The translations under genes were made by a program, and so were the position numbers. Positions 5,043 to 19,011 of a stretch of DNA of 64,000 nt are shown one piece after another. The number at the start of each line of letters is the position of its first letter. The first letter of the stretch is position 1. The DNA comes from Goleter apudmare HA4340-LM2 (GTDB lineage Bacteria; Cyanobacteriota; Cyanobacteriia; Cyanobacteriales; Nostocaceae), in the NCBI GenBank assembly GCA_019359495.1, contig JAHHHF010000081.1, positions 1 to 64,000 on the forward strand, given 5' to 3'. The notes under the pieces are model-generated. The model had not been told where the DNA came from, searched no databases, and worked only from the letters and a program-made list of their open reading frames with translations.

Positions 5043-7031
5043 CTACGTGCTTTCGCTGGTATCATTCCCAATTTCTCTGATTTTTGGGCGTTGAGCGAAT
5101 GGACGCCCATAAGGATTAGTGGTGTCTGTGATACCCGGTTGAGTGATAAATCCAGATTCAGCATTTTCCACAAAGCTATCCCAATCATTTTTCTTCGGTT
5201 CTGGTGATGGAGCATTGGGATTGTTTGGATCTGGTGGTGGGGTCAATCCAGATAAATTGCTCATGACTGTGGATATATCAGCCGCGCCACGAAGAATGCT
5301 GCCAAGTTTGCCCAAAGGGTCACTAGTGCCGACATTGCGATAGTTGGCAGCCCGGTACATGGCCGCCATCTCTAGTAGTGGCACGAGAACATCATTTAAA
5401 TCGTTCTTGTCGTCGTTATCGAACCCTTTAACCTTCACTTCCCCCGGCTGGAGCATTTTATCTAGTTGCTGTTCCCCTGGCTTGAAGGTAAATGGAACTT
5501 GGCGCTCGACTTGTTTACCCTTGTAGCCTAAGAATTCAGAATTGGCAGCTGCATGATCTCCTGCTAATATTGCCGCTTGTTTGGCACTGCCTGCCTCAAT
5601 CATGGCGTTAACCGTGGCAATTAAATTGGCATTTGATTCTGATTGCAATACCAACAGTATCCCCACGATTTCCGCTATGGATTCAGCTAAGTTTGGTAAC
5701 TCTATTGCGCGTTCTTGGTTCCCTTCTTGCGTTAAATCGGCATCTTCAATTTTAATTTCTTGGGGGAATTGTCCAAATTGGTTATTAGTTTGTTTGATTG
5801 AATAAGCGATAAATTGCGCTAAGTTTTGAATTTGAGTTGTGCCACTGTTCTTTTTGGTTAAGCTATTTGGCACAAATGCGGGTAAATCAGTTGAACCAAT
5901 TTTCTTGAGGATTAATCTTAAAAGTTGTTCTACATTTGAATTATTTGGACAGCATCCCATTTTGCAGCATTCCTTACGGGGTGGGGGTGGGGGGAATGTC
6001 CCCCGCTCTTTTATGTAGTCCGAACAAACAAGTTTGAGTGAAATTTGTTGATTAGTGACATTAAGTCTATCCCATGAAGCATCACATCCAATATTCCCAA
6101 AAGAATCTTCGGCACAGTTTGAAATTACAATACTATATTGACGAAATGGCGTAACAACATTAATGAAACTATCTAAAACGTCAAAATTAACAATATAGTC
6201 AGACTGTTGTTGGTTTGTTACTGTGCTGTAATTGTACAAGAAACCATAAAGAATATTATCTTGTAATACTTGTTGACTTAGCGCTATCCAACCTAATGTT
6301 GTATTTACACCGCCTATTATGCCGCTTAATGTAATCAATTGTGTTCCCGCATCACGAGGATGATTCCTGGGTATAGTGTGAGTAAATAAAGATTCTGTAA
6401 TTGTAGGTTGATTATTCAATCTAGGATTAAAAATTAATGATTCAGTTGTTGCCTTAAAAGTTACCCTAATAGTTTTAACTGTTTCTTGTAATTCTGGCGG
6501 AAATACAGCCGATTCCAAGGATACTGTTACTTTAGAGTATTGCCAGCCTTGCCCAGAGAATTCATAATCTGAGGCATTGCTAATCGAATTCAAAGACCGA
6601 GTTATTCCATCAAAATAAGTGAAAAATAAATTTCTTGTAATTACATAAAAGTTTAATCCATCTTCGCAGTTGCCTTCTGGCACGGCTGGACGGTCAACAT
6701 ATTGAATGATGACAGGTTCTGGGGGTGGTTCCTCAACTGTAGGAATGCAATTTGGATTTCTGTAAACAATTTGCACAGGAGGTAGTTTTATAAATCCCAA
6801 AGTGAGATTTAATTGGATTCCTAGGTTACAGCTATCAAACACTATTGAGGGTTCTATCGCTGCGAATTTTAAAGATAGTGGATTTTCACCACAATATGGA
6901 CTATTGGGGTATCTATCGCAATCTGTGGGGTCTGCTGGCGTGTTGGGTGTTACGTAAAAGGGGGAGTTGAAAACAGGTACAAGTCCCTCCTGTATGGTTT
7001 TTCTTTCTTTAAGTAGCTTGCGTCGTACCAT
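5043..7031 (-). CDS. 662-aa modular element protein with a Cys cluster
   Basis: This is the largest protein of the left block. Residues ~1-110 are Pro/Cys-containing; ~115-345 form a beta-rich domain (many alternating Val/Thr/Ile strands). A Cys cluster CCKMGCCPN lies near residues 353-361, after a poly-Pro run. The rest is helical with EIVGILLVLQSESNANLIA and a Pro/Asn-rich tail (TPPPDPNNPNAPSPEP). No signal peptide is seen. It could be a spike- or tail-like structural protein, or a membrane-surface protein. I do not recognise a family. The start overlaps the 48-aa gene by 23 bp, and GGTGAGA precedes the ATG. Confidence 0.82.
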   Translation of the reverse strand: MVRRKLLKERKTIQEGLVPVFNSPFYVTPNTPADPTDCDRYPNSPYCGENPLSLKFAAIEPSIVFDSCNLGIQLNLTLGFIKLPPVQIVYRNPNCIPTVEEPPPEPVIIQYVDRPAVPEGNCEDGLNFYVITRNLFFTYFDGITRSLNSISNASDYEFSGQGWQYSKVTVSLESAVFPPELQETVKTIRVTFKATTESLIFNPRLNNQPTITESLFTHTIPRNHPRDAGTQLITLSGIIGGVNTTLGWIALSQQVLQDNILYGFLYNYSTVTNQQQSDYIVNFDVLDSFINVVTPFRQYSIVISNCAEDSFGNIGCDASWDRLNVTNQQISLKLVCSDYIKERGTFPPPPPRKECCKMGCCPNNSNVEQLLRLILKKIGSTDLPAFVPNSLTKKNSGTTQIQNLAQFIAYSIKQTNNQFGQFPQEIKIEDADLTQEGNQERAIELPNLAESIAEIVGILLVLQSESNANLIATVNAMIEAGSAKQAAILAGDHAAANSEFLGYKGKQVERQVPFTFKPGEQQLDKMLQPGEVKVKGFDNDDKNDLNDVLVPLLEMAAMYRAANYRNVGTSDPLGKLGSILRGAADISTVMSNLSGLTPPPDPNNPNAPSPEPKKNDWDSFVENAESGFITQPGITDTTNPYGRPFAQRPKIREIGNDTSEST

Positions 7032-7155
7032 GATTAAATCTCACCAGTAAGCCGTAAGAAAAGTTTCTCAAGCGTTTGTATTTATCTATCATCAATTCTT
7101 TATCAAGCTTGCCGTAAATTTTGTAAGGCATTTTGAAATCATCCATGTCATTCAT
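7009..7155 (-). CDS. 48-aa small protein coupled to its neighbours
   Basis: The ATG at 7155 forms an ATGA overlap with the stop of the 123-aa gene, and its stop lies 23 bp inside the start of the 662-aa gene. The product begins MNDMDDFKMPYKIYGKL and is basic and helical towards its end. It is below usual ORF length limits, but the coupled arrangement is the same as for other genes of the element. Function unknown. Confidence 0.6.
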   Translation of the reverse strand: MNDMDDFKMPYKIYGKLDKELMIDKYKRLRNFSYGLLVRFNHGTTQAT

Positions 7156-7523
7156 CGCGCGGTTATCTCCATTGTGAAATCATCTTTGAAATTGAAAGGC
7201 ATATAATTTTGGCTGGCAATTAGCCTGTATTCAGCTAAATCATCTGGAGACAGCGAATCAACAATATTTTCAATAGTGCTATCCCAAATGAGTTTTAGTA
7301 ATTGCAAATCTTCGTTAGTAATATCAGGCTTCAATTCCAGTCTGGTAATAGCAATTTCTAGCCTGATTCTGGCGTTTTGATTGGGGGTTAGTTGAGATAG
7401 TTTGTTGTAGGCTAGGCTTAACAACATTTGAGTTGAATATTGGGATACGTCAGGGGGAATTAATGATTGCTCAATCTGTCGTATCTCAATCAATTCTCCA
7501 TCTTTAAAAATTCTTAATTCCAT
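7152..7523 (-). CDS. Hypothetical element protein (123 aa)
   Basis: The start chosen is the ATG at 7523 (MELRIFKDGELIEI), two bases after the stop of the preceding gene; a TTG further upstream is less likely. The first ~20 residues look like a beta hairpin, followed by helical stretches (LLSLAYNKLSQLTP, NEDLQLLKLIWDSTIENIV). It is soluble with no signal. A virion assembly or tail-chaperone-like role would fit the neighbourhood but is not shown by any motif. Confidence 0.75.
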   Translation of the reverse strand: MELRIFKDGELIEIRQIEQSLIPPDVSQYSTQMLLSLAYNKLSQLTPNQNARIRLEIAITRLELKPDITNEDLQLLKLIWDSTIENIVDSLSPDDLAEYRLIASQNYMPFNFKDDFTMEITAR

Positions 7524-7525
7524 AG

Positions 7526-8119
7526 CTAATTCGTGGTAAACCAAAACATAGGCGGTCTAATTGGAGTCCCTAAATCAGTTTTAGGAGCAATTAAATAATC
7601 AGTATTAAAATCCACATTTGCTTTAGTGTAAAAACAGGGTTCCGCTCCTGCTACTCTATTGTTAAATCCTAAATACCAATTAATTTGGGAATTAGTAGAA
7701 CCTACTAACCCTGTAACAATATATCCTTCATTAGACGTATGCCTTAACCCTAGCCAATGAAAACCTGCATCAAATTGAGAATTGACAGTCCAAGCTACTT
7801 GAGTATTACTTAAATTATTAACTGTTCCTAGTGCTAGCTTTCTAGTAGAAGGCAAGCCATTTTCATTATTAAAAATATCCAGTTTTGTAAAAGTACCAGA
7901 ACTTACAACAACAAGATTCATAATAATTAATTCTATATTTGCTGCTTTCGGTAAGTACCAAGGAATATAGCCAAAAACAGTTATGCCAAACGGACTAACA
8001 TTACTTACATTTGCAGCTTTATCGATGCAACTATAAATTTTTCCTGGGACATATCCTGGGTGGTTGTCAGGTGTAGATGCGGTAAGCGGAATAGAATAAA
8101 CCGGATTTCTTAAAGGCAT
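7526..8119 (-). CDS. Beta-sandwich-like element protein (197 aa)
   Basis: The ATG at 8119 overlaps the upstream stop by one base (TGATG). The sequence is rich in aromatic and small residues in a strand-turn pattern (FGYIPWYLPKAANIELIIMN, AWTVNSQFDAGFHWLGL), similar in character to carbohydrate-binding or virion decoration beta-sandwiches. No signal peptide is present. Together with the next gene upstream it forms a pair of probable surface or structural proteins (inference). Confidence 0.78.
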   Translation of the reverse strand: MPLRNPVYSIPLTASTPDNHPGYVPGKIYSCIDKAANVSNVSPFGITVFGYIPWYLPKAANIELIIMNLVVVSSGTFTKLDIFNNENGLPSTRKLALGTVNNLSNTQVAWTVNSQFDAGFHWLGLRHTSNEGYIVTGLVGSTNSQINWYLGFNNRVAGAEPCFYTKANVDFNTDYLIAPKTDLGTPIRPPMFWFTTN

Positions 8120-8928
8120 CAAACAGACTCCGTCCCCGTTAATGTTGTGTTATCAGCCGTAGCGATCGCCGATATCGCTCCATAGTACGGCGTATCTTTG
8201 ATGTAAAGCTCGTAAGTCCCCCCTCCGGGGAATATGGGAATACCTTGTCCCAGGCTGGCAGTCTCTCCAAAATTCAAATAAACCTTACTGAATGATTCGT
8301 TGACAAACAGCGCATACTTCCTACTTGAATTGGCGGAAAGCACTACAGTGCTAGACGTGCCAATTGTTTGACCAAATGGAGTATTACCAGTAATTGGAGC
8401 GGGGTTATCTTCTACTACTATTTCTCTGAGGCGACTGCCATGAATTGTCACCAAGTCGCTACCAGTTAGTAAACCATAGCCCACGTCTTGAATTTGTACG
8501 CCAATTTGACCGTTGTCACCTAGTTCTATGGCTAGGTTATCAGTGTACAAGTCCATTAGATTGTACATCCGGTAGGGATAGCCGGATGGGTTGAGCAAGC
8601 TGATGGAGCCGATTAAGTTCCAGTCAACTGGATCGGTGTTGCTGATGTATAGGTTAAGTTGCTTTCTGGGGCTGCCCCACTCCACATCTAGTGTTTTGTA
8701 GAGTTTGTCAGTCTCAGTATCTTCAAGTTCAAAATTAGGCAGGTTAATCGGGTCTAAGCTGGCGATTTTGGCATAGGCTTTCAGGTTTTTGATGAAAATG
8801 TTTTGGCTGAGAATTTGATAGCCAGTGGAAAATGCCGCGCTACTGAACACAGGAATGATACTGCTTGCACTAGCGCTGTTGAGTTTTAAGGTGATGGCTT
8901 TTGATTCGGCTATGGTCGTGATGGTCAC
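8119..8928 (-). CDS. Probable structural protein with a phage-type C-terminal domain (269 aa)
   Basis: Translation starts at GTG 8928; no strong ribosome site is visible. The first ~180 residues are mixed, with helical and beta parts. The last ~85 residues (TVVLSANSSRKYALFVNES, then NFGETASLGQGIPIFPGGG and a YELY strand) resemble a small all-beta domain seen in many phage virion or head-decoration proteins, where a sugar- or particle-surface role is assumed. This is the best hint that the minus-strand operon encodes particle components. It lies 38 bp downstream of the primase-helicase gene. Confidence 0.78.
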   Translation of the reverse strand: MTITTIAESKAITLKLNSASASSIIPVFSSAAFSTGYQILSQNIFIKNLKAYAKIASLDPINLPNFELEDTETDKLYKTLDVEWGSPRKQLNLYISNTDPVDWNLIGSISLLNPSGYPYRMYNLMDLYTDNLAIELGDNGQIGVQIQDVGYGLLTGSDLVTIHGSRLREIVVEDNPAPITGNTPFGQTIGTSSTVVLSANSSRKYALFVNESFSKVYLNFGETASLGQGIPIFPGGGTYELYIKDTPYYGAISAIATADNTTLTGTESV

Positions 8929-8966
8929 TTGCTAAATCCGTGTGGTTAATCGAATTTAGCCTGTAT

Positions 8967-11867
8967 TCAAGTGTTTTGAGTAGCTGGCTTGCTTAAATTA
9001 CTGGCTTTGACATATTGAAAGCGTCCTTTGGTTGCAAGCTCAACTTGATACTGACGCTTGTTAGGGTCGTAGCCAACAACCTGCACCAGTTCACCCCCAT
9101 ACATGGCTGGTTGTCCTATTGTTGGCTTCCAAGGTTGATTTTCCATTTTCTTGATGAATTCAAGCGCGATCGCCTCCAGTTGCAATTTATAATTTCGCTG
9201 CATTTCGATAACTGGCTGATAAACTTGCCCTTCCACTTCAATCTGCCAATGGACTTTGCCGCCACGCTGAAACTTGATTGGCTCAAAGTGGACTGCCTTG
9301 TTGTTGACTACATTGTCGAATCCTAGAGGCATGATTTTTCTCGTGACCGGGCACTCCTTATATGGAAGTACAGCCTTAGCTGGATGGGTGACGGGTTGAG
9401 CAGGATTTTCAAAGGAAGAAAACAGAAGTTGTGTTTCCTGTTTTTGGTTCGCATAGCCAGTAGTTGTAAGGCTATTATCGGTCATCACCTTATTTAGCAA
9501 GGCTTTCGAGTCATCACCCGACCCGTCACCCGACCCGTCACCATCCGTCACCGACCCGTCACTACCCGTCACCCGTTGCATAAGACAGTAATCGTAGGTG
9601 GGATTTTGCTCGTCAAGCACTGTCCTTAGCCGTAGCCCCTTGATAAATTTGCCTGTTTTGGTGTGTTGCTTTTCTACTGACCACTTCAGAACTGTATGGC
9701 ATAGCTCTATCAAATCGGGACTAAAAACTTTACTGCTTTTGGGTGAATCACCAGATGCCGCACAGTGTTGGATGTACGAGCCGAATAAAGTACGTGGCTC
9801 ACCGTTGGCTCCCTCGTTCCTGTCGTTGCCTATGGGAGTCACGGCGTTAGGGTCGTAAATAACTTTGTCGTTGAGCCAAGCAGCGATTGAATCACCTTTC
9901 ATCTGGTTATTCCAGAATTCCAAGGTGCATTCTGGGATTTCTTTCTTGCCTCTGAGTACCGCGCTGACATGATCGTCTGAAAGCGAGAGTAAGTAGTTGG
10001 TGAACGCTGCCAATTCTGGCTCGAATACTGTGGATAACTGTTGGCGTTTGGCTTCAGGAACGGGGTTGTTACAGGGAACGGTGATAGTTCGACGTTTGGC
10101 ACGGCTGCTACTGCCACCGCTAAAAACTGGAAAGTTAGAAACGACTAAGGTCATTCCCTGGTAATCAAAGTTGAAAGACTTCTGTCTTTTTTCTTCGGCT
10201 CTCACCTGGTCTTCGCCAGTCAAGCTGAGGAATCGCCCTATGCTTCCTCTATAGGGGTCTTCATCTGGGAATATTACTAATCGCTTGCCAAAGGCGTTGG
10301 CTCCCTCGAATTGGTTGGTACACCAGATGGGTAGATTAGTCACCAGAACGTTTTGCTTGCCAATTAATTCGGTGAGTAATCTGGTGAAAGTGCCCTTACC
10401 TGTTCCACCTAATCCAATTAAGTGTAGAAATTTCTGCAAGTCATAGCGTCCTTTGATAACGGCGTTGCAGTAACAGATTAGTACTTGCTTGATATCAGCA
10501 TTTCCAGCAGAAAGGTGTTCCAGAAATTTGTTGATATTCTCCCAGCTTCCACCTTCGGCAGAATAATTTCTTGGGAGACACCAAGTCAGCCTGAAATGTG
10601 GTGAATGCGGCAAAAGTTTACCTGTGCTGAGTTCTACTACCCCATTGAGAAAGGGCAAGAATTCGCGGGACGAGACCTGTCTCCATTGGCGTTCAACAAG
10701 TTCATGGCGCAGTAATCTAACTATCGTGGTGATGTAATCAGCACCAAAGGTGTGAGCGCCTTCATTGAGAACAATTCTATAAATGAACGATTCAATGAAT
10801 TCGGGTGACTCATTAGACCAAACCCCGTCAAAGTCAGCGCTGTATCTACGCCATTGTTTTGTCTCGTTATCAAAAGCCAATTGTTGGCGATAGTCTTCGG
10901 CAATCTTTTTCGCCATCTGGTCAGGAGGCAGTTTTTTTTCTTTATCTTCTTTGGACAAGAAGACACCATTACCGGGCTTAAATTGTTTCTCTAGCCGGGC
11001 GATCGCCCGGTTGTAAGACGAGTCAAATGCTCCAAATCCTTTGTTCATGATTAAGTCATCAACTCCCTTGCCGTCCTCTGACGACCAAATAATATCCTCT
11101 ACATAGTTCTTAAAACCATCTTTGTTAAGAACGTTTCCCAGTCTTCGCTTGGCGGCGTTGACTCGGTGACGAGTTTTTTCTTTGCTGTCCCGGTCTAGGG
11201 CAAGCAGCCACATCCCTGATTCTTTATTGAATTGACGAAGGTCGGGGATTAGTTCTTTCTGTCCCCCGGAATCGCAGCCGTAGAGCGATAAGGGGACGTA
11301 TCCGTGGGTGAGTAGGGACAATCCTTTTTTGCCTCCTTCGGTCACTATTCGTGGGATGTCCAATTCTGAATTTCTAAACCATTCCCAGAAACTGCCGTCT
11401 GTGGGAAGCTCTACCCCGTATCGCTGTCCGATTTTTTTCCGAATAGCCGTAGGCACTGGTGGAAGGAAGACTTTATCACCGTTGCCTTTGGGGGCGAGAT
11501 AGCGATAAGGGCGCTGTCTCTCTTCATCCCATTCAGAAATAATGGCTTGCCAAACTGAGCCATCTTCATTTACAAAGAACGCAGCATACATCGGCTCTTT
11601 TACTTTTTGGGTGAACCTGGTAAATGTCCAATTCAAAGCATCATGTATGGGTGTAACAACTTCTCCACCATCATAAAATTCTTGGTCTTGATGAAATTCG
11701 ATGCAATCGCTAAACAGGATTGGATCTATCCCGCTCCCTTCAATAAATGAATTTCCAATGAACTCTTGAAAATCATTGAATGAATCAAATTTGTTTCTAG
11801 AATTAACCTGCTGATATTCAGCAGATAACACGGCTAATCCTTGATTGCTAGATGTTTGGCTAGTCAT
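8967..11867 (-). CDS. DUF3854/SF3 primase-helicase (966 aa)
   Basis: The protein should prime and unwind DNA for replication of the element. Residues ~170-270 (VTEGGKKGLSLLTHGY, WLLALDRDSKEK) match the DUF3854 TOPRIM-like region of phage and plasmid primases. Residues ~480-600 form an SF3/D5-type helicase: Walker A GLGGTGKGTFT near residue 487, Walker B RLVIFPDEDP, motif C TLVVSNFP and a sensor region SRAKRRTITVP. Residues ~765-785 are an acidic Gly/Asp linker encoded by iteron-like DNA repeats. GGAGGA sits just upstream of ATG 11867, preferred over the TTG at 11900. It leads the minus-strand operon. Confidence 0.92.
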   Translation of the reverse strand: MTSQTSSNQGLAVLSAEYQQVNSRNKFDSFNDFQEFIGNSFIEGSGIDPILFSDCIEFHQDQEFYDGGEVVTPIHDALNWTFTRFTQKVKEPMYAAFFVNEDGSVWQAIISEWDEERQRPYRYLAPKGNGDKVFLPPVPTAIRKKIGQRYGVELPTDGSFWEWFRNSELDIPRIVTEGGKKGLSLLTHGYVPLSLYGCDSGGQKELIPDLRQFNKESGMWLLALDRDSKEKTRHRVNAAKRRLGNVLNKDGFKNYVEDIIWSSEDGKGVDDLIMNKGFGAFDSSYNRAIARLEKQFKPGNGVFLSKEDKEKKLPPDQMAKKIAEDYRQQLAFDNETKQWRRYSADFDGVWSNESPEFIESFIYRIVLNEGAHTFGADYITTIVRLLRHELVERQWRQVSSREFLPFLNGVVELSTGKLLPHSPHFRLTWCLPRNYSAEGGSWENINKFLEHLSAGNADIKQVLICYCNAVIKGRYDLQKFLHLIGLGGTGKGTFTRLLTELIGKQNVLVTNLPIWCTNQFEGANAFGKRLVIFPDEDPYRGSIGRFLSLTGEDQVRAEEKRQKSFNFDYQGMTLVVSNFPVFSGGSSSRAKRRTITVPCNNPVPEAKRQQLSTVFEPELAAFTNYLLSLSDDHVSAVLRGKKEIPECTLEFWNNQMKGDSIAAWLNDKVIYDPNAVTPIGNDRNEGANGEPRTLFGSYIQHCAASGDSPKSSKVFSPDLIELCHTVLKWSVEKQHTKTGKFIKGLRLRTVLDEQNPTYDYCLMQRVTGSDGSVTDGDGSGDGSGDDSKALLNKVMTDNSLTTTGYANQKQETQLLFSSFENPAQPVTHPAKAVLPYKECPVTRKIMPLGFDNVVNNKAVHFEPIKFQRGGKVHWQIEVEGQVYQPVIEMQRNYKLQLEAIALEFIKKMENQPWKPTIGQPAMYGGELVQVVGYDPNKRQYQVELATKGRFQYVKASNLSKPATQNT
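9521..9579. repeat. Iteron-like repeats inside the helicase gene
   Basis: Five copies of RYCCGTCAC-type 9-mers (ACCCGTCAC at 9521, 9533, 9554, 9564; ATCCGTCAC at 9543) start 12, 10, 11 and 10 bp apart, followed by a degenerate sixth at 9571. They are the reverse complement of the array at 12283-12391 and have the same spacing. A single copy in the other orientation is at 9388-9396. Confidence 0.75.
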
Positions 11868-11876
11868 GATTTCCTC

Positions 11877-11893
11877 CAATTGTGTTACAATTG
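11877..11893. promoter_or_regulatory. 17-bp palindrome upstream of the primase-helicase gene
   Basis: CAATTGT-GTT-ACAATTG is perfect, with 7-bp arms and a 3-bp centre, and abuts the ribosome binding site. It has the same 7-3-7 geometry as the palindromes near 587 and 757 but different arms. A repressor operator or an RNA hairpin covering the start are both possible. Confidence 0.5.
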
Positions 11894-11928
11894 AAGACAA
11901 ATAAGGTTTTAAATGTCTTTTTATTTTT

Positions 11929-11962
11929 CCGAGGAATGCTATTACATTCTCTCGGTTTTTTT
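11929..11962 (+). terminator. Hairpin with T-tract upstream of the helicase operon
   Basis: CCGAGGAATG (11929-11938) pairs with CATTCTCTCGG (11945-11955, one bulged T), followed by seven T on the plus strand. There is no plus-strand gene just before it, so it may stop antisense transcription or act as a structured leader for the minus-strand operon. Confidence 0.45.
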
Positions 11963-12008
11963 CTTTTTATACACATATTCTTTCTCCTGATTTACGTAGG
12001 TGGATGAA

Positions 12009-12281
12009 TTAAAAAGGAATGGAATCAATGTCAGTAAGGTCTATTTCTATACCTTGTTTTTTCATGGCATTAATAAATGCCCATTCTGCTGCATGGGGTG
12101 CATTCACAATGATTTCTGGGATGTAAAAGGACAGGCTGATTGTGAATACGCGTGTCCATTTTGACCAGTCGATTCTTATCTCGATGGGGAAGTGGTTGAG
12201 GGTAATAAGGAAGCGATCAAAGTGGGGTGAGTGCATGGCTCCCCACTGCCAAAATTTGAGAATCATGCATAGTTTTTTCAT
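12009..12281 (-). CDS. Hypothetical element protein (90 aa)
   Basis: The protein has a compact hydrophobic/aromatic N-terminal half (FWQWGAMHSPHFDRFLITLNH) and a strand-rich middle (TRVFTISLSFYIPEIIV), ending with acidic IEIDLTDIDSIPF. No signal or membrane helix is clear. The start codon lies two bases from the first iteron of the array, so no canonical ribosome site exists and its expression may respond to occupancy of the repeats. Family not recognised. Confidence 0.65.
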   Translation of the reverse strand: MKKLCMILKFWQWGAMHSPHFDRFLITLNHFPIEIRIDWSKWTRVFTISLSFYIPEIIVNAPHAAEWAFINAMKKQGIEIDLTDIDSIPF

Positions 12282-12282
12282 A

Positions 12283-12391
12283 GTGACGGGTCAAATGACG
12301 GATGGTGACGGGTCGGTGACGGTTGGTGACGGGTTGGTGACGGATGAATGGTGACGGGTTGAAACGCTTGCTGGATAAGGGGGTGACGAGT
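12283..12391. repeat. Iteron-like array (eight GTGACGGGT-type 9-mers)
   Basis: Starts at 12283, 12295, 12305, 12316, 12326, 12337, 12351 and 12383, consensus GTGACGGRT with minor variants (ATGACGGAT, GTGACGGTT, GTGACGAGT). The spacing of 10-12 bp places most copies on one face of the helix. It is non-coding, next to the replication gene, and mirrored by the inverted array at 9521-9579. This is a candidate replication origin or copy-control/partition site. Confidence 0.65.
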
Positions 12392-12462
12392 TGAGTGGCA
12401 AGTAGTGGTAGCTATGGAGGGGAATTTTTAAAAAGTTGACTTTGCATTTATCCCCTCTGTAA

Positions 12463-12705
12463 CTAATTCGACTGGTTTCTACTTCGCTTGAGTTTGTTGG
12501 CGGTGTATTTGAGTGTTGCCATGAATCTGGGAGATTCACTGATCAGCCTGGGGAGTTTTTCGAGAAAGACCCCTGTTAACACCGTGACTTCCACTTCGTC
12601 CAATTCGGGGTCGAGTTCCTTCATGAAGGCGATGAGTTCGCACAGTTTCATCCCTGTGAAAAGGGTGGCTTCATCAATTTGGGAATTTACTTGTTTAGTG
12701 GTCAT
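12463..12705 (-). CDS. Hypothetical acidic helical protein (80 aa)
   Basis: The product (MTTKQVNSQIDEATLFTGMK) is mostly helical, with an acidic middle (KELDPELDEVEVTVLTG) and a basic C-terminus (NKLKRSRNQ). The start overlaps the stop of the 58-aa gene upstream as ATGA. A small regulator or adaptor is possible; nothing more can be said. Confidence 0.68.
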   Translation of the reverse strand: MTTKQVNSQIDEATLFTGMKLCELIAFMKELDPELDEVEVTVLTGVFLEKLPRLISESPRFMATLKYTANKLKRSRNQSN

Positions 12706-12878
12706 GGGTTAACGTCTCGGTCAAGAACGACTGTGAAAAAGCACTCGTGATAGATTGAGCCTGCAATATGTTTGAATGCTCTGTTTCCCCATATCAAAAA
12801 TTCTGGGTATTCGGTGAAGGGGAGTATCTTTGCTTCTTTGACAAACTCCCTTGTGGCTGTTTTGAGTATGACTGTCAT
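12702..12878 (-). CDS. 58-aa small protein (coupled)
   Basis: The ATG at 12878 opens a 58-codon frame starting MTVILKTATREFVKEAKILP and ending VVLDRDVNP; its stop overlaps the next ATG (ATGA). It has a protein-like pattern of strands and one helix. It is the first gene of the minus-strand run facing the divergent KGK-type gene, and falls below usual ORF length cut-offs. Confidence 0.62.
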   Translation of the reverse strand: MTVILKTATREFVKEAKILPFTEYPEFLIWGNRAFKHIAGSIYHECFFTVVLDRDVNP

Positions 12879-12910
12879 TGGTCGTTGAGTAACGGGGAAT
12901 GATTAGGGAA

Positions 12911-12938
12911 GGCGGGTTGAGTTGGCGCTTAACCCGCC
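12911..12938. promoter_or_regulatory. Inverted repeat in the divergent promoter region
   Basis: GGCGGGTT (12911-12918) and AACCCGCC (12931-12938) are perfect arms around a 12-bp centre. They lie between the divergent 58-aa gene (start 12878) and the KGK-type gene (start 12967), so this may be an operator for both. Confidence 0.45.
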
Positions 12939-12966
12939 AGTTGTGTCGGACAAGAGAGAAAGCGAA

Positions 12967-13302
12967 ATGAGCAGTTTTGAATTGAATGATGATGATGTGA
13001 TTTCGATGGAGATGCCTGACTTTGGAACAGGCTTTACCTTTAAATTCAGTGAACTCAAACAGAAAGTGCGAGAGTTTGCGAATCAAGAAAACAAAAACAG
13101 TTCTTACCAGAATGCAAAGGTTAAATGGTTCACTGAGGCAGGAGCTAAATGCGAAATTTTAAGCACTCAGGGAGGAGGTTGGCAGAAAGGAAGACTTCGC
13201 TTTCGCCTGGAATTCATTCCTGATAAACCGCCAACACCAAAGCCTTGTGAGTGTTCTACTGATTCATCACCAAGCGATTTTCGTTCTGAGGTAGGCATCT
13301 GA
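12967..13302 (+). CDS. KGK-domain-like protein (111 aa)
   Basis: The sequence matches the cyanobacterial KGK family in outline: an acidic N-terminus (DDDVISMEMPDF), then residues 55-90 with KWFTEAGAKCEIL, then WQKGRLRFRLEFIPD, where the family's Lys-Gly-Lys is here Lys-Gly-Arg. The family has no established biochemical role. The start is ATG 12967; the open frame extends upstream to 12922 through a non-ATG codon. It is followed by a strong bidirectional terminator. Confidence 0.72.
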   Translation: MSSFELNDDDVISMEMPDFGTGFTFKFSELKQKVREFANQENKNSSYQNAKVKWFTEAGAKCEILSTQGGGWQKGRLRFRLEFIPDKPPTPKPCECSTDSSPSDFRSEVGI

Positions 13303-13340
13303 GAAACCTGCTAATTAACTAAATAGGCAAAACGTCCATA

Positions 13341-13377
13341 AATAAAGCCGTCTACCCATTGGGTAAACGGCTTTATT
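13341..13377. terminator. Bidirectional terminator
   Basis: AATAAAGCCGT pairs with ACGGCTTTATT, and an inner TACCC/GGGTA extends the hairpin. It lies between the convergent KGK-like gene and the RHH/coiled-coil gene, with T-rich ends on both strands. Confidence 0.85.
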
Positions 13378-13525
13378 CTTGCTGGACATCTTCGATAGGT
13401 TGCGACTCTACGCTTTCTAATAGATTTGACAATTGAACTAAACGACTACGCAGCTTGTCAGCCCTAGACTCTGTTTCTTCTAGCTCCTCAAGAGTTTCAG
13501 CTATAAGCTGCTTAATTGTTCCCCC
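13373..13525 (-). CDS. Coiled-coil extension of the RHH gene in the -1 frame
   Basis: In the frame one base back from the RHH gene, 49 codons after a run of five G (13521-13525 on the plus strand) encode TIKQLIAETLEELEETESRA, then a further heptad-rich helix (LRSRLVQLSNLLES) and an acidic end. It has no start of its own with a ribosome site and is far more protein-like than the same frame further upstream. The likely product is a 111-aa fusion of RHH domain and coiled coil, made by -1 slippage at G-GGG or left by a fixed frameshift. Confidence 0.5.
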   Translation of the reverse strand, partial: GGTIKQLIAETLEELEETESRADKLRSRLVQLSNLLESVESQPIEDVQQE

Positions 13526-13707
13526 AGCAGTATGTCCCCCTGTCCCGCAGACGACATCTCGCCCCTTGCGATCATTTCGACCACTTCGGAACGACTGATT
13601 TCTAGGTTCTTCGCTAACTGGTCGAGCCTTTGGAGACTTGTATCCGACAAGCTCATGCTCACAGTTTTCTTGATCTCTCCTCGCTGGAGATGCTTGGCTT
13701 TGGGCAT
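13501..13707 (-). CDS. Ribbon-helix-helix (CopG-type) regulator, 68 aa
   Basis: MPKAKHLQRGEIKKTVSMSL supplies the basic N-terminus and strand, and SLQRLDQLAKNLEISRSEVVEMI gives the two helices of an RHH fold. Such proteins bind short palindromes as dimers of dimers. Three TTAGGAT half-sites lie just upstream (13733-13791). In-frame translation stops soon after the domain (GEQLSSL); the -1 frame continues as a coiled coil that could aid oligomerisation. It may be the master repressor of the divergent right-hand operons (inference). Confidence 0.82.
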   Translation of the reverse strand: MPKAKHLQRGEIKKTVSMSLSDTSLQRLDQLAKNLEISRSEVVEMIARGEMSSAGQGDILLGEQLSSL

Positions 13708-13732
13708 TTGACAAAACCATAATGACTTCCCA

Positions 13733-13791
13733 TTAGGATAGCAGGATTCTAATTGTAATTATCTTATTAGGATGTTAGTGTATTATCCTAA
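13733..13791. promoter_or_regulatory. TTAGGAT operator cluster
   Basis: TTAGGAT occurs at 13733-13739 and 13767-13773, and its complement ATCCTAA at 13785-13791, forming an inverted pair with an 11-bp centre plus one more direct half-site. The cluster covers the AT-rich region immediately upstream of the RHH gene start (13707), as expected for autoregulation. Confidence 0.6.
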
Positions 13792-14022
13792 CAGAATATC
13801 TTACTCTACTCCAGTAAAAACTACTAAAGCCCCATTCCGTTTACCTCAAACCATGCAGAGATAGCAGCCTGCCGCCCGTAGTGCAACAGTAAAGACCTGC
13901 TAGAGGAAAGCGCGATGAAGCCAGTAAAAAAAAACAGCCACCGGGACAAGCAGCCGGAATCGAAACCCTAGAGGGAGCCTTGGAAAAATGCACAGCGAAG
14001 AGGTGAGAATAGAAACAGGAAC
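13792..14022. other. Leader region without a clear gene
   Basis: About 230 bp between the operator cluster and the 58-aa gene. It holds only very short frames (18 codons from ATG 13915 with GAGGAAA upstream; 28 codons from 13988), and a Gly/Pro-poor, A-rich sequence. It may be a 5' leader for the plus-strand operon. No riboswitch fold is recognised. Confidence 0.3.
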
Positions 14023-14199
14023 ATGGAACCAACATCAAAGCAAGCAATCAACGCAATTCGGGTTTGCGCTCAACTGACCAGAGTTTACAAAACAATAGAC
14101 TTAGTGAGATTAGATGAGCGGACCAGAAACATTTACATCTTGGCTGATAATTCGTTAGAAGCTGAGATTACACCAGTAGGAGAGGTAATTTGGTTATGA
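14023..14199 (+). CDS. DUF6888-like small protein (58 aa)
   Basis: MEPTSKQAINAIRVCAQLTR, then VYKTIDLVRLDERTRNIYIL, resembles the short cyanobacterial proteins grouped as DUF6888, which usually sit directly upstream of a DUF6887 gene, as here. The stop overlaps the next start as ATGA (14196-14199). It is a shorter ORF than usual gene-call limits. The biological role of the pair is unknown; the two-gene coupled layout resembles toxin-antitoxin modules, but there is no direct evidence for toxicity. Confidence 0.72.
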   Translation: MEPTSKQAINAIRVCAQLTRVYKTIDLVRLDERTRNIYILADNSLEAEITPVGEVIWL

Positions 14200-14387
14200 C
14201 CAAGCCAGATTTTCAACAGATGACTTTAGATGAGCTAAAAAATTACGTCTTAGCCCATCGGGACGATGAGGAGGCATTCCAGACTTACATTACAAGAAAA
14301 CGCGCTCTTGCTGTGAACGCGATACCAATGACTATTGAGGAGGCAGAAGCTGATTTAGAGAGACGATTTGGACAACAAGCAAGCTAG
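14196..14387 (+). CDS. DUF6887-like small protein (63 aa)
   Basis: MTKPDFQQMTLDELKNYVLA followed by HRDDEEAFQTYI is the typical start of cyanobacterial DUF6887 proteins. The rest is acidic and helical (IEEAEADLERRFG). The ATG at 14196 overlaps the upstream stop, and the TTG at 14190 is not needed. A strong terminator follows, making a self-contained two-gene unit ahead of the integrase operon. Confidence 0.78.
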   Translation: MTKPDFQQMTLDELKNYVLAHRDDEEAFQTYITRKRALAVNAIPMTIEEAEADLERRFGQQAS

Positions 14388-14407
14388 TAAAAACGAAATT
14401 TATCCCT

Positions 14408-14440
14408 AAAAGCGTTGTGCTCTTAACACAACGCTTTTTT
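14408..14440 (+). terminator. Rho-independent terminator
   Basis: AAAAGCGTTGTG (14408-14419) pairs perfectly with CACAACGCTTTT (14427-14438), 7-nt loop, followed by TTATTTT. It separates the DUF6888/6887 pair from the MerR-like gene. Confidence 0.9.
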
Positions 14441-14473
14441 ATTTTACCAGCCAGTAAACTAACCTGGAAAACA

Positions 14474-15034
14474 ATGCAACTATACACCATTGCCGAGGCA
14501 TCTCAACTAACAGGAATTAAAGTATCAACCATTCGGTCCTGGCTGAGGCGATACCCAGAGGTATTTCAATTAGACGTTCATCTTGCCAGCGATGAACATG
14601 GAAGAAAGCTTTGGACAGAGGCAGGTATCGAAGTACTGCGCTCTCGTCTATCACAGAATGATGCAACTGACGATGCAACCGACGATGCAACCGACGATGC
14701 AACCGACGATGCAACCGACGATGCAACCGACGATGCAACCGACGATGCAACCGACGATGCAACCGACGATGCAACCGACGATGCAACCGACGATGCAACC
14801 GATATGTTGGAAATAATCTTGGAACGGGATGCAGAACTTCTTGCACGAGAATACTGGCGACAGCTGCCAGGGCGGGTACTACGCCGCATCATCTTGATGC
14901 GCGATAACCCCACGCCACAACAGCGTGAAATTGTGCAAATGAGTGTACACGCTGCACTCAACGCTGGCACATCACGTTTACTGTTGCCTGTTTATCAACC
15001 GATGCTTGTGGAGTCAGATGATGAACAAAGCTAA
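14474..15034 (+). CDS. MerR-type HTH protein with a (DDAT)n minisatellite (186 aa)
   Basis: The start is ATG 14474 (MQLYTIAEASQLTGIKVSTI), because the longer frame runs through the terminator. Residues 3-60 form a MerR/excisionase-like winged helix (TIAEASQLTGIKVSTIRSWL). Residues 63-110 are 12 tandem Asp-Ala-Thr-Asp units, and residues 111-186 form a helical domain (ARVLRRIILMRD-like, ending ESDDEQS). It heads the operon that ends with the integrase, so it may act as an excisionase or operon regulator. The repeat is a flexible acidic linker whose length could vary by slippage. Confidence 0.82.
   Translation: MQLYTIAEASQLTGIKVSTIRSWLRRYPEVFQLDVHLASDEHGRKLWTEAGIEVLRSRLSQNDATDDATDDATDDATDDATDDATDDATDDATDDATDDATDDATDDATDMLEIILERDAELLAREYWRQLPGRVLRRIILMRDNPTPQQREIVQMSVHAALNAGTSRLLLPVYQPMLVESDDEQS
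14660..14803. repeat. 12-bp minisatellite, 12 units
   Basis: Twelve head-to-tail units of GATGCAACCGAC (first unit with T, last ending GAT) lie inside the HTH gene. The unit length keeps the frame, and the reverse strand and other frames stay open too. The unit number is the same in the second element copy. Confidence 0.97.
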
Positions 15035-15281
15035 ACAGCCGCCAACTAGCAAGGTTGTTCCATTCACAGGTGAATTTTTTTACCCACAACCTGACCCTAC
15101 ACCACAGCCAGCGACGGGAAACTTATCAGCATTCATGGTCCTGATTATTGCAGCGCTGGCAGGCGGGTTAGCAATTGGAGCTATCGCCACCTACCAACGC
15201 GCCGACCAAACAGAACTGAGGCAACTGCAAGCCGAAAGGCAACAGCTGCAACAGGTAAAACAGAACGTTTGTACTCAATGA
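15018..15281 (+). CDS. Single-TM protein with coiled-coil tail (87 aa)
   Basis: The start ATGATG at 15018/15021 overlaps the end of the HTH gene. A Pro-rich N-terminus (PQPDPTPQPATG) leads into one membrane helix (residues 37-60, FMVLIIAALAGGLAIGAIA) and a Gln/Leu-rich coiled coil (LRQLQAERQQLQQ). The architecture suggests an anchored spacer or regulatory subunit. No family is recognised. Confidence 0.75.
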   Translation: MMNKAKQPPTSKVVPFTGEFFYPQPDPTPQPATGNLSAFMVLIIAALAGGLAIGAIATYQRADQTELRQLQAERQQLQQVKQNVCTQ

Positions 15282-15288
15282 GGTAAAC

Positions 15289-15798
15289 ATGGGAGTTTTA
15301 GCAAGAATCACTAGCAGCACTCAAAAAAAAGGCGGTGAATCAAACTCACTCGCCACCGGAACACACGCCATAGATAAAGATAAGGTGTTGGCTGCAACAG
15401 ACCCAACCGTTATTAACCCACTGCAAACAGGTACTTGGGAAACTATTCGGACTGCTCCAGTTAATCACACCCCGCGTTACTTCAACAAGGCAGAAGCCGA
15501 CGCACTCAAAGCCACTGCAACGCGATCGCAACAGGAGGCAAGACAAACAAAACGCGCTTACAAGTCACTCAAGAAGATTGAAAACGCAGACGCTCAAGTT
15601 CATGCAGCCCATCGGGGGTACATTCGTGGTGTTGCCGACAGTGAGCTAGTCAAAAAACGTTCAGATGCAGCAACCGCCCGACATCTCCATGCACTTAGAC
15701 CAGAATACGCCCGCATGGGAGCAGGGCTAGACCGTGCCGAAAATAACGCAAACGCACGGATTGCCGAAATCAAAGCCAAAGTGAAGAGTAACTACTAA
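15289..15798 (+). CDS. Basic helical element protein (169 aa)
   Basis: AGGT precedes ATG 15289. The protein is alanine/lysine-rich and largely helical after residue 60 (RSQQEARQTKRAYKSLKKIE; NANARIAEIKAKVKSNY). No membrane helix is seen. It may be a DNA- or membrane-associated scaffold. The stop and the next start share one base (TAATG). Confidence 0.75.
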   Translation: MGVLARITSSTQKKGGESNSLATGTHAIDKDKVLAATDPTVINPLQTGTWETIRTAPVNHTPRYFNKAEADALKATATRSQQEARQTKRAYKSLKKIENADAQVHAAHRGYIRGVADSELVKKRSDAATARHLHALRPEYARMGAGLDRAENNANARIAEIKAKVKSNY

Positions 15799-16070
15799 TG
15801 GCAAGAGCGATACACCTGGGGGCATGGTTTTTAACCGGGTGTATCGCTTCTAGCTTTGTGGCGTGGCTAGGGGCGATACATCCGGCATTACTACGAGTCA
15901 TGTGGGTGATTTACATTGTTGCGGCGGCGGCGCTGGTGCTGGCACTCGTGACCGATGATGCAGTGCGAGTGTTTCTCAAACTAGGTGAACAAGATTACTA
16001 CGCGCTACTAATTGCGATCGCATCAGCGATAATTCTGGGGGGAATTTTGCAATGGTTAATCGGTGGATGA
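15798..16070 (+). CDS. Three-helix membrane protein (90 aa)
   Basis: Three hydrophobic stretches span about residues 8-25, 31-52 and 68-88 (LLIAIASAIILGGILQWLIG). There are few charged residues outside the loops. It overlaps both neighbours (TAATG upstream, ATGA downstream), so it is co-translated with them. A small inner-membrane component of unknown function. Confidence 0.78.
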   Translation: MARAIHLGAWFLTGCIASSFVAWLGAIHPALLRVMWVIYIVAAAALVLALVTDDAVRVFLKLGEQDYYALLIAIASAIILGGILQWLIGG

Positions 16071-16591
16071 AAACAAATTGCCTTATGGCTAGCGCCGCGT
16101 CCTTGTGGTTAGCGGCACTCTCTCCCATGCCAGTAATTGGTAAGGGAATTTCCTATGGCTTGGCATTGGTGACTTCAGTGCAACTAGTGCAAGAATCCAG
16201 ACGGCTCATGGTGCAAGATGCCCGCCGCGCTGCCCTAAATGCCGTCAACCAAGAACTCGAACAGACAGAAATTGCACTGCATCACTGGCAACAAGAAGAA
16301 TCGCTTAAAGAGGTTTACGGAGCAACAGCGACTTACCCGCCGGAAGTCAAGCAGGAGTTAACCGAATCGCTGGAACACTTATATAAAGAGCCAAGTGCAG
16401 ATCACCCACAGGAAACTTACACTTCCACTTCCCACACAAAAGCTTTTTATTTGGCTGTGAAGTCACTTTTGGATGCCAAGGGAGAGACGTTTGTGATTGA
16501 GCAAATCCTTAAACTTGGGGGTAGGAATTGGGCAGAAGGGAAAGCACACTTGCAACAGATTTTAAATGAGGGGGAAGCTAATGGATGGTGA
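16067..16591 (+). CDS. Membrane-anchored helical protein (174 aa)
   Basis: The chosen ATG 16067 overlaps the upstream stop as ATGA; ATG 16052 after GGGGGGAA is an alternative. One or two N-terminal hydrophobic stretches (LMASAASLWLAALSPMPVIG) are followed by long helices (QDARRAALNAVNQELEQTEI) and a globular C-terminus (KGETFVIEQILKLGGRNWAE). Unknown function. The last part resembles DNA-binding helix packing only loosely. Confidence 0.75.
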   Translation: MKTNCLMASAASLWLAALSPMPVIGKGISYGLALVTSVQLVQESRRLMVQDARRAALNAVNQELEQTEIALHHWQQEESLKEVYGATATYPPEVKQELTESLEHLYKEPSADHPQETYTSTSHTKAFYLAVKSLLDAKGETFVIEQILKLGGRNWAEGKAHLQQILNEGEANGW

Positions 16592-17003
16592 CAAATCCTC
16601 AATCATGAGTGAGGAATTAGAGAGAAAACTTTGTTCACTAGCTGAAGAATACGTCGAAAATGAACATTACCGCGTAGGTAGTCACAGTTATGCGTGGGAA
16701 GAAACAGACTATCGCAGCGACCATTTAGACGGAAATGTCGTGTGTGGTGAGTGCCGTCCCAATGATGCACATCATTATTCTTGGTGGGAAGTTGTCTCCA
16801 CTGAAATCCTTGATAGTGAAATAAGTGAGTGCAACGATGAAACCGGGGAATATTGCGTTGCTGTTAAGGCTTTGATTGCGGTTAGTTGTGGGGATGAAGA
16901 TGAAGATGTTGACGAAAAGGCAGAACCAGAAGAATGCATAATTTACATTCACATTGAGCGCGATGACGAGGGAGATTTTTGTGTCGTTAGTACAGAAGAA
17001 TAG
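16581..17003 (+). CDS. Acidic hypothetical protein (140 aa)
   Basis: ATG 16581 follows AGGGGGAAG and overlaps the upstream gene by 11 bp. The product is strongly acidic (GDEDEDVDEKAEPEE) with two Cys in VVCGECRPNDAHHYSW and mixed strands. It could mimic DNA or act as a small regulator of the integrase it precedes, but no family is visible. It overlaps the integrase start by 23 bp. Confidence 0.72.
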   Translation: MDGDKSSIMSEELERKLCSLAEEYVENEHYRVGSHSYAWEETDYRSDHLDGNVVCGECRPNDAHHYSWWEVVSTEILDSEISECNDETGEYCVAVKALIAVSCGDEDEDVDEKAEPEECIIYIHIERDDEGDFCVVSTEE

Positions 17004-18153
17004 CGATGAAATTGAAACCTTAATATCAGAAGCTAACACCAGACTCAAAGCACAAAACATCGGCATCATTATAGATTGCAAAGGCTCATTTTTAAGACTA
17101 CGGGGACTATTCCCCAAAAAGCCAGGTTCCCCCGATACAGGACTCACAAGCCAACGCATTAGCTTAAAAATTCGTGCCACAGCAAGCGGAGTCAAAGCAG
17201 CAGAGAAACAAGCTCTAAAAATTCGGTTATCCTTGGATGCAGGCGATTTTGATTGGTCGTCGTATTCTTCCAAAAATTCAATCATTACTCGAAATTACGC
17301 AAACCAAACCCCTCGCACAATCAGCGAGTGGGTTTCTTTATTTGAGGTTGATTATTTTCAAAGAAGACGCACAGATCAGCAAACTTTAACCACCTGGCGC
17401 ACTGAATACGGCATGGTGTTCAAGCGTCTCCCCTCAGAGGCAACCTTGACATCAGAATTATTGCTGCAAACTATCCTCGCTACTCCCCCAGATACCAAAA
17501 CCCGCAAGCGATTTTGTATTTGCCTCGGCGCGATCGCCAAATTTGCTGGCATTCCTTTAGATACTGGGCAACTCAAAGGCAACTACAACCCCAAGCGAGT
17601 TGCACCCCGCCAAATTCCAGATGATCAAGTGATTGTTGAGTGGTATTACAAAATTCCTTCTGCTCCCTGGCGTTGGGTCTACGGCATGATTGCTACTTAT
17701 GGCCTTCGCAATCATGAAGTATTTCGCCTGGATTTGGAGGCATTTGAGGGTAGCCACATTTGCACGGTGCTGGAAGGTAAAACCGGGAATCGGCGCGTGT
17801 GGCCGTTTCATTTGGAATGGGTGGAAGAATTTCAATTGCACTTCCCCCAATTACCCGCCGTCAATTTGGAGCGCTCGAATGCCAGCTTGGGGGGAGACGT
17901 AAGCCAAATGTTTCGGCGAGTGGGTATAAACTTCCCTGCCTACAATCTACGCCACGCTTGGGCAATCAGAACATTAGAGTATGGCTTGCAAGTTTCTCTG
18001 GCAGCCCAGCAGATGGGGCACTCGCAACAAGTGCATAGTGAGTTGTATCATCATTGGATAACAGAAAAACAACACCAACGCGCTTTTGAGCAGTTGCTTA
18101 AACGCTCAGATCGCCCCCGTCCCCCAGTAGTCAATCCCGACAATCCCCTATAA
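16981..18153 (+). CDS. int: Tyrosine recombinase / integrase (390 aa)
   Basis: The enzyme should catalyse integration at the tRNA-Phe 3' end, and with a helper also excision. Catalytic residues are Arg243 (GLRNHEVFRL), Lys267 (LEGKTGNRRVW), box II YNLRHAWAIR with Arg324 but Tyr321 where most relatives have His, His347 (MGHSQQ) and nucleophile Tyr356 (SELYHHW). The N-terminal ~100 residues resemble an arm/core-binding region. GTG 16981 is preferred as start, since GAGGGAG lies six bases upstream; the frame also has ATG 16963. The gene ends 100 bp before the next att core. Confidence 0.93.
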   Translation: MSLVQKNSDEIETLISEANTRLKAQNIGIIIDCKGSFLRLRGLFPKKPGSPDTGLTSQRISLKIRATASGVKAAEKQALKIRLSLDAGDFDWSSYSSKNSIITRNYANQTPRTISEWVSLFEVDYFQRRRTDQQTLTTWRTEYGMVFKRLPSEATLTSELLLQTILATPPDTKTRKRFCICLGAIAKFAGIPLDTGQLKGNYNPKRVAPRQIPDDQVIVEWYYKIPSAPWRWVYGMIATYGLRNHEVFRLDLEAFEGSHICTVLEGKTGNRRVWPFHLEWVEEFQLHFPQLPAVNLERSNASLGGDVSQMFRRVGINFPAYNLRHAWAIRTLEYGLQVSLAAQQMGHSQQVHSELYHHWITEKQHQRAFEQLLKRSDRPRPPVVNPDNPL

Positions 18154-18253
18154 CTAAGCTTTATATATACCTGATGCCAGTAAAACCCCACTCACACAAG
18201 GATTACAGCCTAAATATTGTCAACAATGGGCAAAAATCAAAAGTTGACTTTGT
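18154..18253. other. Integrase-to-att spacer (attP arm)
   Basis: A 100-bp AT-rich stretch between the integrase stop and the att core (18254). It ends AAGTTGACTTTGT before the core. It probably holds recombinase arm sites, none of which can be defined from sequence alone. Confidence 0.4.
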
Positions 18254-18314
18254 GGACTGAAAATCCTCGTGTCACGAGTTCAAGTCTCGTTCCTGGCATC
18301 CAATCAAGACAAGC
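18254..18314 (+). repeat. att core, copy 2 (junction of the two elements)
   Basis: Same 61 bp as 248-308. Upstream it continues the element's own right end (TTTGT), so the anticodon stem is not fully paired here (GTGGA instead of GAGGA). It is the hybrid junction between the two copies. Confidence 0.92.
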
Positions 18315-18416
18315 TATCTAGCCTCCAGAGTTATCGCCTTTGGTGGCTTGTTTGCTATTTGTGCCCGTTTTTTGCCATAGCAGTTTTATCAAAGCCTGTT
18401 GATCCATCAGGTTTAC

Positions 18417-18746: not shown

Positions 18747-18762
18747 AAAAAAAATCCTCTAT

Positions 18763-18779
18763 TGCCGTGTAACAAGGCA
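18763..18779. promoter_or_regulatory. Palindromic operator candidate (copy 2)
   Basis: TGCCGTG-TAA-CAAGGCA, 17 bp upstream of the RHH-like start, as at 757-773. Confidence 0.5.
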
Positions 18780-18831
18780 TTGTAGAGGATGCATCATCTT
18801 GAGTGGAAGTTTACTTGAGAGGAAGGATTGA

Positions 18832-19011
18832 CTAAATATTACTATCCGGTATCGCTGGTCTTTGCACCAGATACCCCAGGATTGCTGTAGCGACTCCACC
18901 TACAGCACCTGCTAAATGAGTATCAATAAGTCCGCTACCACTCAAAAGGCTTGCGCCGCCAGCCACTAATCCCAAAAAGGTGCTGAGTCTATCTAATGTT
19001 TGCTTGTTCAT
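18832..19011 (-). CDS. 59-aa holin-like membrane protein (copy 2)
   Basis: Same as 826-1005; ATGA overlap with the gene upstream is preserved. Confidence 0.72.
   Translation of the reverse strand: MNKQTLDRLSTFLGLVAGGASLLSGSGLIDTHLAGAVGGVATAILGYLVQRPAIPDSNI

Follow-up and report, generated by a model that had tools for sequence, protein, structure and literature searches.

Paired, inverted iteron arrays as a candidate replication origin of a cyanobacterial integrative element with a P4-like primase-helicase

Beside a primase-helicase gene of Goleter apudmare HA4340-LM2 lies an array of short, helically phased direct repeats, which raises the question of whether the array is a replication origin and which protein would recognize it. 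A first-pass annotation of the window, by which the entire 64,000-nucleotide stretch of DNA analyzed here is meant, proposed the array as a candidate origin. The proposal gained support from comparative evidence, namely the pairing, co-variation and phasing of such arrays and the AT-rich intervals between them in relatives, and from the fold of a winged-helix domain. It was also altered: the array noticed at the outset, array B, is only half of the structure, and its inverted partner, array A, had been overlooked. With a probability of roughly three in four, arrays A and B would be the iterons of the element's own primase-helicase and together form a two-array replication origin, a reading drawn from sequence comparison and structure modelling.

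Array B and the element that carries it

Array B (12283-12391, plus strand) is composed of seven clustered iterons of the GTGACGGGT type (12283-12359), a spacer and a last iteron. The units start at 12283, 12295, 12305, 12316, 12326, 12337, 12351 and 12383. The eight 9-mers described originally are all present: seven differ from GTGACGGGT by at most one mismatch and one (ATGACGGAT, at 12295) by two. They exceed what is expected by chance, as the window contains 31 matches of this type, both tandem copies of the element included, versus 7.2 ± 2.8 in shuffled sequences, none of 100 of which reached 31. In array B of a single element copy, one 7-mer occurs six times within 80 bp and 100 mononucleotide shuffles of the element never yielded more than three; the remainder of the element reaches seven copies of one 7-mer elsewhere, presumably in the 12-bp coding repeat at 14660-14802. 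Steps of 10-12 bp had been claimed throughout, which applies to the first five (12, 10, 11, 10 and 11 bp) but not to the last two (14 and 32 bp). The last unit is thus displaced by 32 bp, about three helical turns. The spacer (12360-12382) contains CGCTTGCTGGATAAGG, the final iteron (12383-12391) reads GTGACGAGT, and similar spacers were also seen in relatives.

The array was said to occupy a gene-free stretch. It is indeed noncoding and located between two small ORFs (12009-12281 and 12463-12705), but a mechanically predicted 82-aa ORF overlaps it. Array B starts 383 bp upstream of the first possible start of the primase-helicase. Adjoining it are 60 AT-rich base pairs (12422-12481) with a GC content of 0.32, within the lowest 7% of the element's 60-bp windows, which from their composition are a possible melting region. 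The AT-richest stretch in the vicinity (11956-12015, GC 0.25) lies between array B and the primase-helicase gene and may merely reflect the promoter region; the lowest GC content of the whole element occurs at 6602, away from array B. None of the 80-, 90- and 58-aa proteins, suggested earlier as possible binders, belongs to a Pfam family. Beyond the small ORFs, a KGK-domain protein is encoded on the opposite strand (12922-13302).

The same array at 30289-30397 was confirmed as identical because the entire 18,006-bp integrative element is tandemly duplicated. Its two perfect copies span 248-36259 of the window; the first extends from 248 to 18253 and the second from 18254 to 36259, with array A at 27486-27578 and array B at 30289-30397. 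The run of identity between the copies amounts to 18,067 bp, equal to one element plus a 61-bp att core, which is found at both ends and between the copies (248-308, 18254-18314 and 36260-36320). By eye the core resembles the 3' end of a tRNA; ARAGORN detected no tRNA anywhere in the window. Near the end of each copy a tyrosine integrase is encoded (16954-18153 in the first, plus strand), which matches Phage_integrase below Pfam's own cut-off and a PHROG integrase family. The 13-mer AAAGTTGACTTTG adjoins array B (12432-12444) and recurs directly before the att core (18240-18252), as it does in the second copy. Near-matches number seven, compared with 3.7 expected, and 8 of 100 shuffles reach as many; the sequence is therefore only suggestive of a possible integrase or excisionase arm site.

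The minus-strand ORF block at 1670-8928 (524, 662, 269, 198 aa and others) yielded no Pfam family for the seven ORFs scanned and, among the PHROGs, a single weak match to a tail tape-measure protein. A nearly perfect 12-bp tandem repeat, GATGCAACCGAC, is present in 11.9 copies at 14660-14802 (and 32666-32808), with equal copy numbers in both element copies. It encodes (DATD)n within a 205-aa ORF whose N-terminus is MerR/excisionase-like. Among the 18 element ORFs scanned in Pfam no partition gene was recognized.

An inverted array within the primase-helicase gene

The primase-helicase is encoded on the minus strand (8967-11900) and comprises 977 aa from the first TTG. Pfam assigns DUF3854 (residues 171-288), D5_N (330-459) and DUF5906 (494-594), the last two constituting the core of a D5-type SF3 helicase. 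Pox_D5 has no sequence match at E≤0.1 in the protein, whereas P4 alpha matches. The nearest named relatives are from Nostoc and Cylindrospermum. Residues 668-764 form a predicted winged helix, encoded directly before array A (9609-9899, minus strand). It was recognized in a structure model of the helicase and the winged helix together (454 residues, nine alignment rows), which with a mean pLDDT of 74 is of moderate confidence; no claim is based on an earlier AlphaFold model of the C-terminal domain alone, with a mean pLDDT of 53. The modelled winged helix matches the origin-binding domain of P4 (1ka8) with Z 10.3 and an rmsd of 2.4 over 92 aligned residues with 23% identity. Runner-up structures for this part alone were RFX DNA-binding domains; because these score only 8.5 and 8.3, the P4 domain stands somewhat above other winged helices. 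For the helicase part the best structural match is the SaPI5 primase-helicase (7ola, Z 17.6), and the sequence profile agrees (E 2e-19). According to the model, the primase-helicase thus carries a C-terminal winged helix of an origin-binding fold. This domain is a likelier binder of the iterons than the 80-, 90- and 58-aa proteins. The link originally drawn between the array and the neighbouring primase-helicase fits this model and the pairing and co-variation in relatives described below.

Array A (9480-9572, minus strand) lies inside the primase-helicase ORF and encodes a low-complexity linker directly after the winged helix. Five iterons (9521-9572) are accompanied by two degenerate GTGATGAC units (9509-9517 and 9480-9488), which enclose the spacer CGAAAGCCTTGCTAAATAAG. 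Their separation of 29 bp deviates from the 32-bp mode of the relatives. Over 91-92 bp, spacer included, array A shares 78% identity with array B, and CTTGCT..ATAAGG in the spacer is common to both. A two-unit pattern, searched in the 6.7-Mb assembly of the organism with up to two mismatches, matched only arrays A and B of each element copy; this confinement to two places per copy rules out a dispersed, genome-wide cyanobacterial repeat. DnaA boxes in the spacer, inspected by eye, are not conserved.

Pairing, divergence and layout in relatives

A match to the primase-helicase, whole or partial, was found in 87 of 217 genomes of the window's family. Relatives were sampled from 40 places in genomes of the same family, six of 238 plasmid records, all 13 viral loci and 20 of 30 class-wide loci (L107-L126). 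Together with the window element these are 80 loci, which were reduced to 65 by removing three whose match falls short of the winged helix (L084, L100, L102) and 12 near-duplicates; L011-L013, whose contigs are equal in length to those of L045, L047 and L048, were not counted besides these. A DNA-level search of plasmids for relatives and a protein search of viral contigs with a single sequence gave no match.

At least four sense-strand units follow the winged-helix code directly in 50 of the 65 loci. Inverted arrays with matching units, at least three in each array, are present in 48 loci, compared with one of 650 dinucleotide shuffles; with at least four units the numbers are 38 loci and none of 650, and with at least two 56 loci and 35 of 650. 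The first set analyzed comprised 41 loci, 34 of them with four or more in-gene units. In 29 of the 34 a partner cluster of at least three units was present elsewhere in the locus, and 28 of the 29 partners were on the opposite strand. The unit count of a locus was reached by foreign units in 39 of 358 trials and by shuffled units in 54 of 762; three partnerless loci (L073, L077, L080) contributed 38 of these 39 and 51 of these 54 successes. The same two-array anatomy is displayed by complete plasmids, for example Gloeothece pP742404. The plasmid region L084, which lies outside the census, contains at least four GGTGTCAAC units, followed at 50-250 bp by three copies in inverted orientation.

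Relatives without the array had been named as evidence that would speak against an origin. Some exist: 48 of the 65 loci have at least three units on both sides, but 17 do not. Among these 17, L053 has its partner 4.8 kb upstream and L081 2.4 kb upstream; in seven others one side has just two units, and another five reach at most one. In the remaining three (L058, L060, L062) there is no array and the open primase ORF stops directly after the winged helix; these loci may be decayed or rely on a different origin.

The units vary strongly between loci. Besides GTGACGGGT they include GTGACGGTT, GTGACGGCT, GTGTAGGGT, GTGGTGGGT, CCTGGTGGA and GTGGTGAAC, further GTGACGACC, CTGACAACC, TGCACCAGTT, TGCAGGACTT, GTGTGTAC and others, some of which fail the pair test. 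Within one paired locus the second array repeats the same or nearly the same unit in inverted orientation; those of L048, for instance, differ by one letter (GTGTCGGGT versus GTGGCGGGT). For L051 the census recorded a pair of an ATAT-type word, and the real unit of this locus pairs upstream. The encoded linker peptide follows the unit (GDGS, GGGS, PGGL, GDDL, TDNH). The short direct repeats are helically phased, in array B mostly with steps of 10-12 bp, and their match to the initiator is seen by co-variation only. Differences between iterons correlate with those of the winged helix (Mantel correlation 0.54), the helicase (0.50) and the intervening segment (0.51). With the helicase held constant, the partial correlation is 0.23 for the winged helix (40 of 2000 permutations as high), 0.12 for the intervening segment (332 of 2000) and 0.18 for the primase part (265 of 2000); with the winged helix held constant, that of the helicase drops to 0.00 (983 of 2000). 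These values come from 24 related loci whose 9-mers were registered by eye, and the partial test is weak. The C-terminal tail beyond array A is unlikely to determine specificity because L011 and the window differ in their tails despite a common unit.

The distance between the cluster and its outlying unit is also conserved in relatives. Gaps were searched between 24 and 48 bp, with core words set by hand and near-duplicates included, and 59 were obtained from 33 of 46 loci. The outlier is placed at 31-33 bp in 34 gaps and at 41-43 bp in 22, about three or four helical turns, and thus at one of these two distances in 56 of the 59; the other three measure 24 or 45 bp. The window is absent from this sample because the degeneracy of its outlying units places them beyond the reach of the gap search. 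Since 33 and 42 bp are both divisible by three, the pattern in coding arrays may partly reflect the reading frame.

AANCCTT was found in 29 of the 59 gaps, in 27 of the 29 at offset 11-12, compared with 2.0% of control segments, and CTT(5-10)AAG in 31 of the 59 versus 6.9% of controls. AANCCTT was present on both strands alike, in 16 of 29 sense-strand arrays and in 13 of 30 opposite arrays. It was likewise found within 400 nt downstream of a related helicase in all seven streptococcal or lactococcal phage or satellite records (L134-L140), near inverted short repeats, with an expectation of 0.2-0.6 per region on both strands. One of these records was separate and the other six were selected out of 40 rows spread over 389 records; the pattern was picked after the sequences had been seen, and the counts are not blind. 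The occurrence in phages is therefore a lead, according to which AANCCTT may be an origin part common across phyla.

Most of the paired loci are compact. The interval between their arrays has a median of about 108 bp, and in 24 of 32 loci its GC content is among the lowest 10% of local values; three of the 35 compact loci, with intervals too short or unclear, were skipped. The window's clade has a split layout, in which B is located upstream of the gene and 2.7 kb from A. In 12 loci with this layout, array B precedes the stop-to-stop frame of the primase ORF by 77-515 bp. In the paired loci as a whole B is mostly downstream of the winged-helix code and often still within the gene (algorithmically in 36 of 48; with L051 corrected, in 35). 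In a tree, loci of the upstream type branch from among the downstream ones, which takes four changes between "up" and the rest, versus a mean of 13.7 on shuffled tips; none of 500 shuffles was as low as four. The tree, a quick one, covered 63 of the 65 rows (L111 and L122 were too short); its branches are long, its root was placed at the midpoint, and the layout labels of L051, L053 and L081 were assigned by hand. The nested position and the few changes suggest, as a lead, that the compact layout is probably older than the split one. Downstream of the winged-helix code, L061 and L065 have their two arrays in reversed, back-to-back order. In the tree L065 is a neighbour of the split-layout clade, and it may be an intermediate between the two layouts.

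These observations can be joined into a broader scenario, which we put forward tentatively and to which we give somewhat less than even odds. The initiator family would have begun with two inverted arrays situated mostly in the 3' end of its own gene; in the window's clade, whose named members are Nostoc and Cylindrospermum, one half would have moved ahead of the gene, resulting in a layout like the ori and crr of P4. Divergence of the iteron code would be rapid and coordinated between the two halves and the winged helix, giving each element a replication address of its own. AANCCTT...AAGG before the outlying iteron would be an undescribed, common part of the origin.

A proposed origin mechanism, its alternatives and known replicons

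From the anatomy of the arrays, their pairing, inversion, co-variation and phasing, and the modelled fold of the presumed binding domain, we infer iteron binding, helicase loading, melting and origin activity. The winged helix at the end of the helicase would bind the 9-mers. Clustered units one turn apart, together with one or more outliers three or four turns further on, would impose an orientation on the initiator complex assembled at each array, and the two inverted arrays would load two helicase rings that face in opposite directions. The rings would then melt nearby AT-rich DNA and prime synthesis. Array A would be both coding and regulatory, its encoded peptide acting as a linker.

The arrays could also serve as a copy-control or incompatibility locus, acting by titration or handcuffing instead of as an initiation site. 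Iterons often double as copy-control and initiation sites, and looping could pair two arrays that lie far apart; the AT-rich DNA between the arrays of 24 of the 32 compact loci is a better fit to an initiation site, and copy control in place of initiation seems to us possible but improbable. Slightly less credit is due to a role of array B as an operator through which the primase-helicase represses its own promoter, with only A, or neither array, being the origin. Autoregulation through iterons is common in plasmids, B precedes the primase ORF at short distance in the 12 split-layout loci, and the AT-richest nearby stretch between B and the gene gives this explanation a little more room. Against it, B lies downstream of the winged-helix code in most paired loci, and a crude scan revealed no sigma-70-type match near B on the strand of the gene. 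We therefore consider an operator unlikely.

Two further explanations dispense with initiation altogether. The Gly/Asp/Ser-rich linkers could be low-complexity code without any function at the DNA level, the repeats, which are prone to expansion, being kept alike by concerted evolution through slippage and gene conversion. Yet the linker protein changes with the unit, array B is noncoding in the window, and the phased spacer and the inverted order are retained while the unit changes. A mere coding repeat is ruled out by the second of these observations and the variation of the linker, and concerted evolution of linker code is in our view very unlikely. Even less probable is a centromere-like or transfer site with phased direct repeats (parC/parS, oriT). 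Partition sites can have phased repeats of about 11 bp, but no partition gene accompanies the arrays among the 18 ORFs scanned; what they accompany is the primase-helicase gene, one of them within it. The two-array origin served by the primase-helicase thus remains the preferred reading.

Iteron origins of winged-helix primase-helicases are already known. Like the alpha protein of phage P4, the protein of the window is a single primase-helicase with D5_N, DUF5906 and a C-terminal winged helix of the 1ka8 fold, and as in P4, short repeats occupy two cis regions, in P4 crr 3' of the gene and ori upstream. The annotated P4 record places type 1 repeats in both regions, with crr immediately 3' of alpha and ori about 2.3 kb upstream of it; the window likewise has two separate iteron regions, A in the 3' part of the gene and B upstream. 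P4 alpha binds the origin repeats via its winged helix and then unwinds and primes (PMC4234260); for P4 we rely on the annotated record and the accessible portion of the published text. The two systems differ in several respects. The primase of P4 consists of a zinc ribbon and Toprim_3 (Zn_Ribbon_Prim, Toprim_3), that of the window of DUF3854, and the window element is therefore not classed as P4 itself. The P4 repeat GGTGAACA occurs on both strands in each region, whereas the window arrays are direct and on one strand each; crr is outside the gene and array A inside it; and the spacers differ. Unlike the AANCCTT-bearing arrays of relatives, neither P4 region contains this motif.

The helicase part points to the PriRep1 protein of SaPI5, its best structural match (7ola). 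SaPI origins have paired repeat sets around AT-rich DNA. According to the portion of the source available, short repeats just downstream of rep are recognized by the C-terminal domain, and Rep apparently binds the origin as two hexamers (PMC7581432). The compact relatives, 24 of 32 of which have inverted arrays around AT-rich DNA, resemble this layout as it is described. The downstream repeat placement of SaPIs is not found in the window, where array A is in the coding region and B on the far side of the gene. Phage lambda O provides a parallel for an origin within a gene. So do the RepA_N plasmids of the pSK41 type, with origin repeats in the initiator gene that encode a linker peptide; their initiator family is different, and a second array is not mentioned in the accessible part of the source (PMC5703833). 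CyRepA and ORFb of pCC5.2 share DUF3854, and the ORF with its flank replicates in cyanobacteria (PMC10079941, PMC6066503, excerpts). Unlike that of the window, their helicase part is DEXDc and not D5-type, and rolling-circle replication is assumed for those replicons; the word iteron is absent from the available text of PMC10079941. A literature search, mostly without subscription papers, retrieved no cyanobacterial set of such origins, no in-gene origin array in this family and no matched divergence of arrays, a negative result that is weak because most subscription papers were out of reach.

The analysis provides a concrete origin candidate for a widespread cyanobacterial family of P4-like primase-helicases. 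With dozens of natural pairs of iterons and winged helices, the recognition code could become readable, and it could be predicted which elements are mutually compatible. The compact loci offer small replicons for cyanobacterial vectors, and the distribution of layouts suggests a route by which a compact, SaPI-like origin may have become a split, P4-like one.
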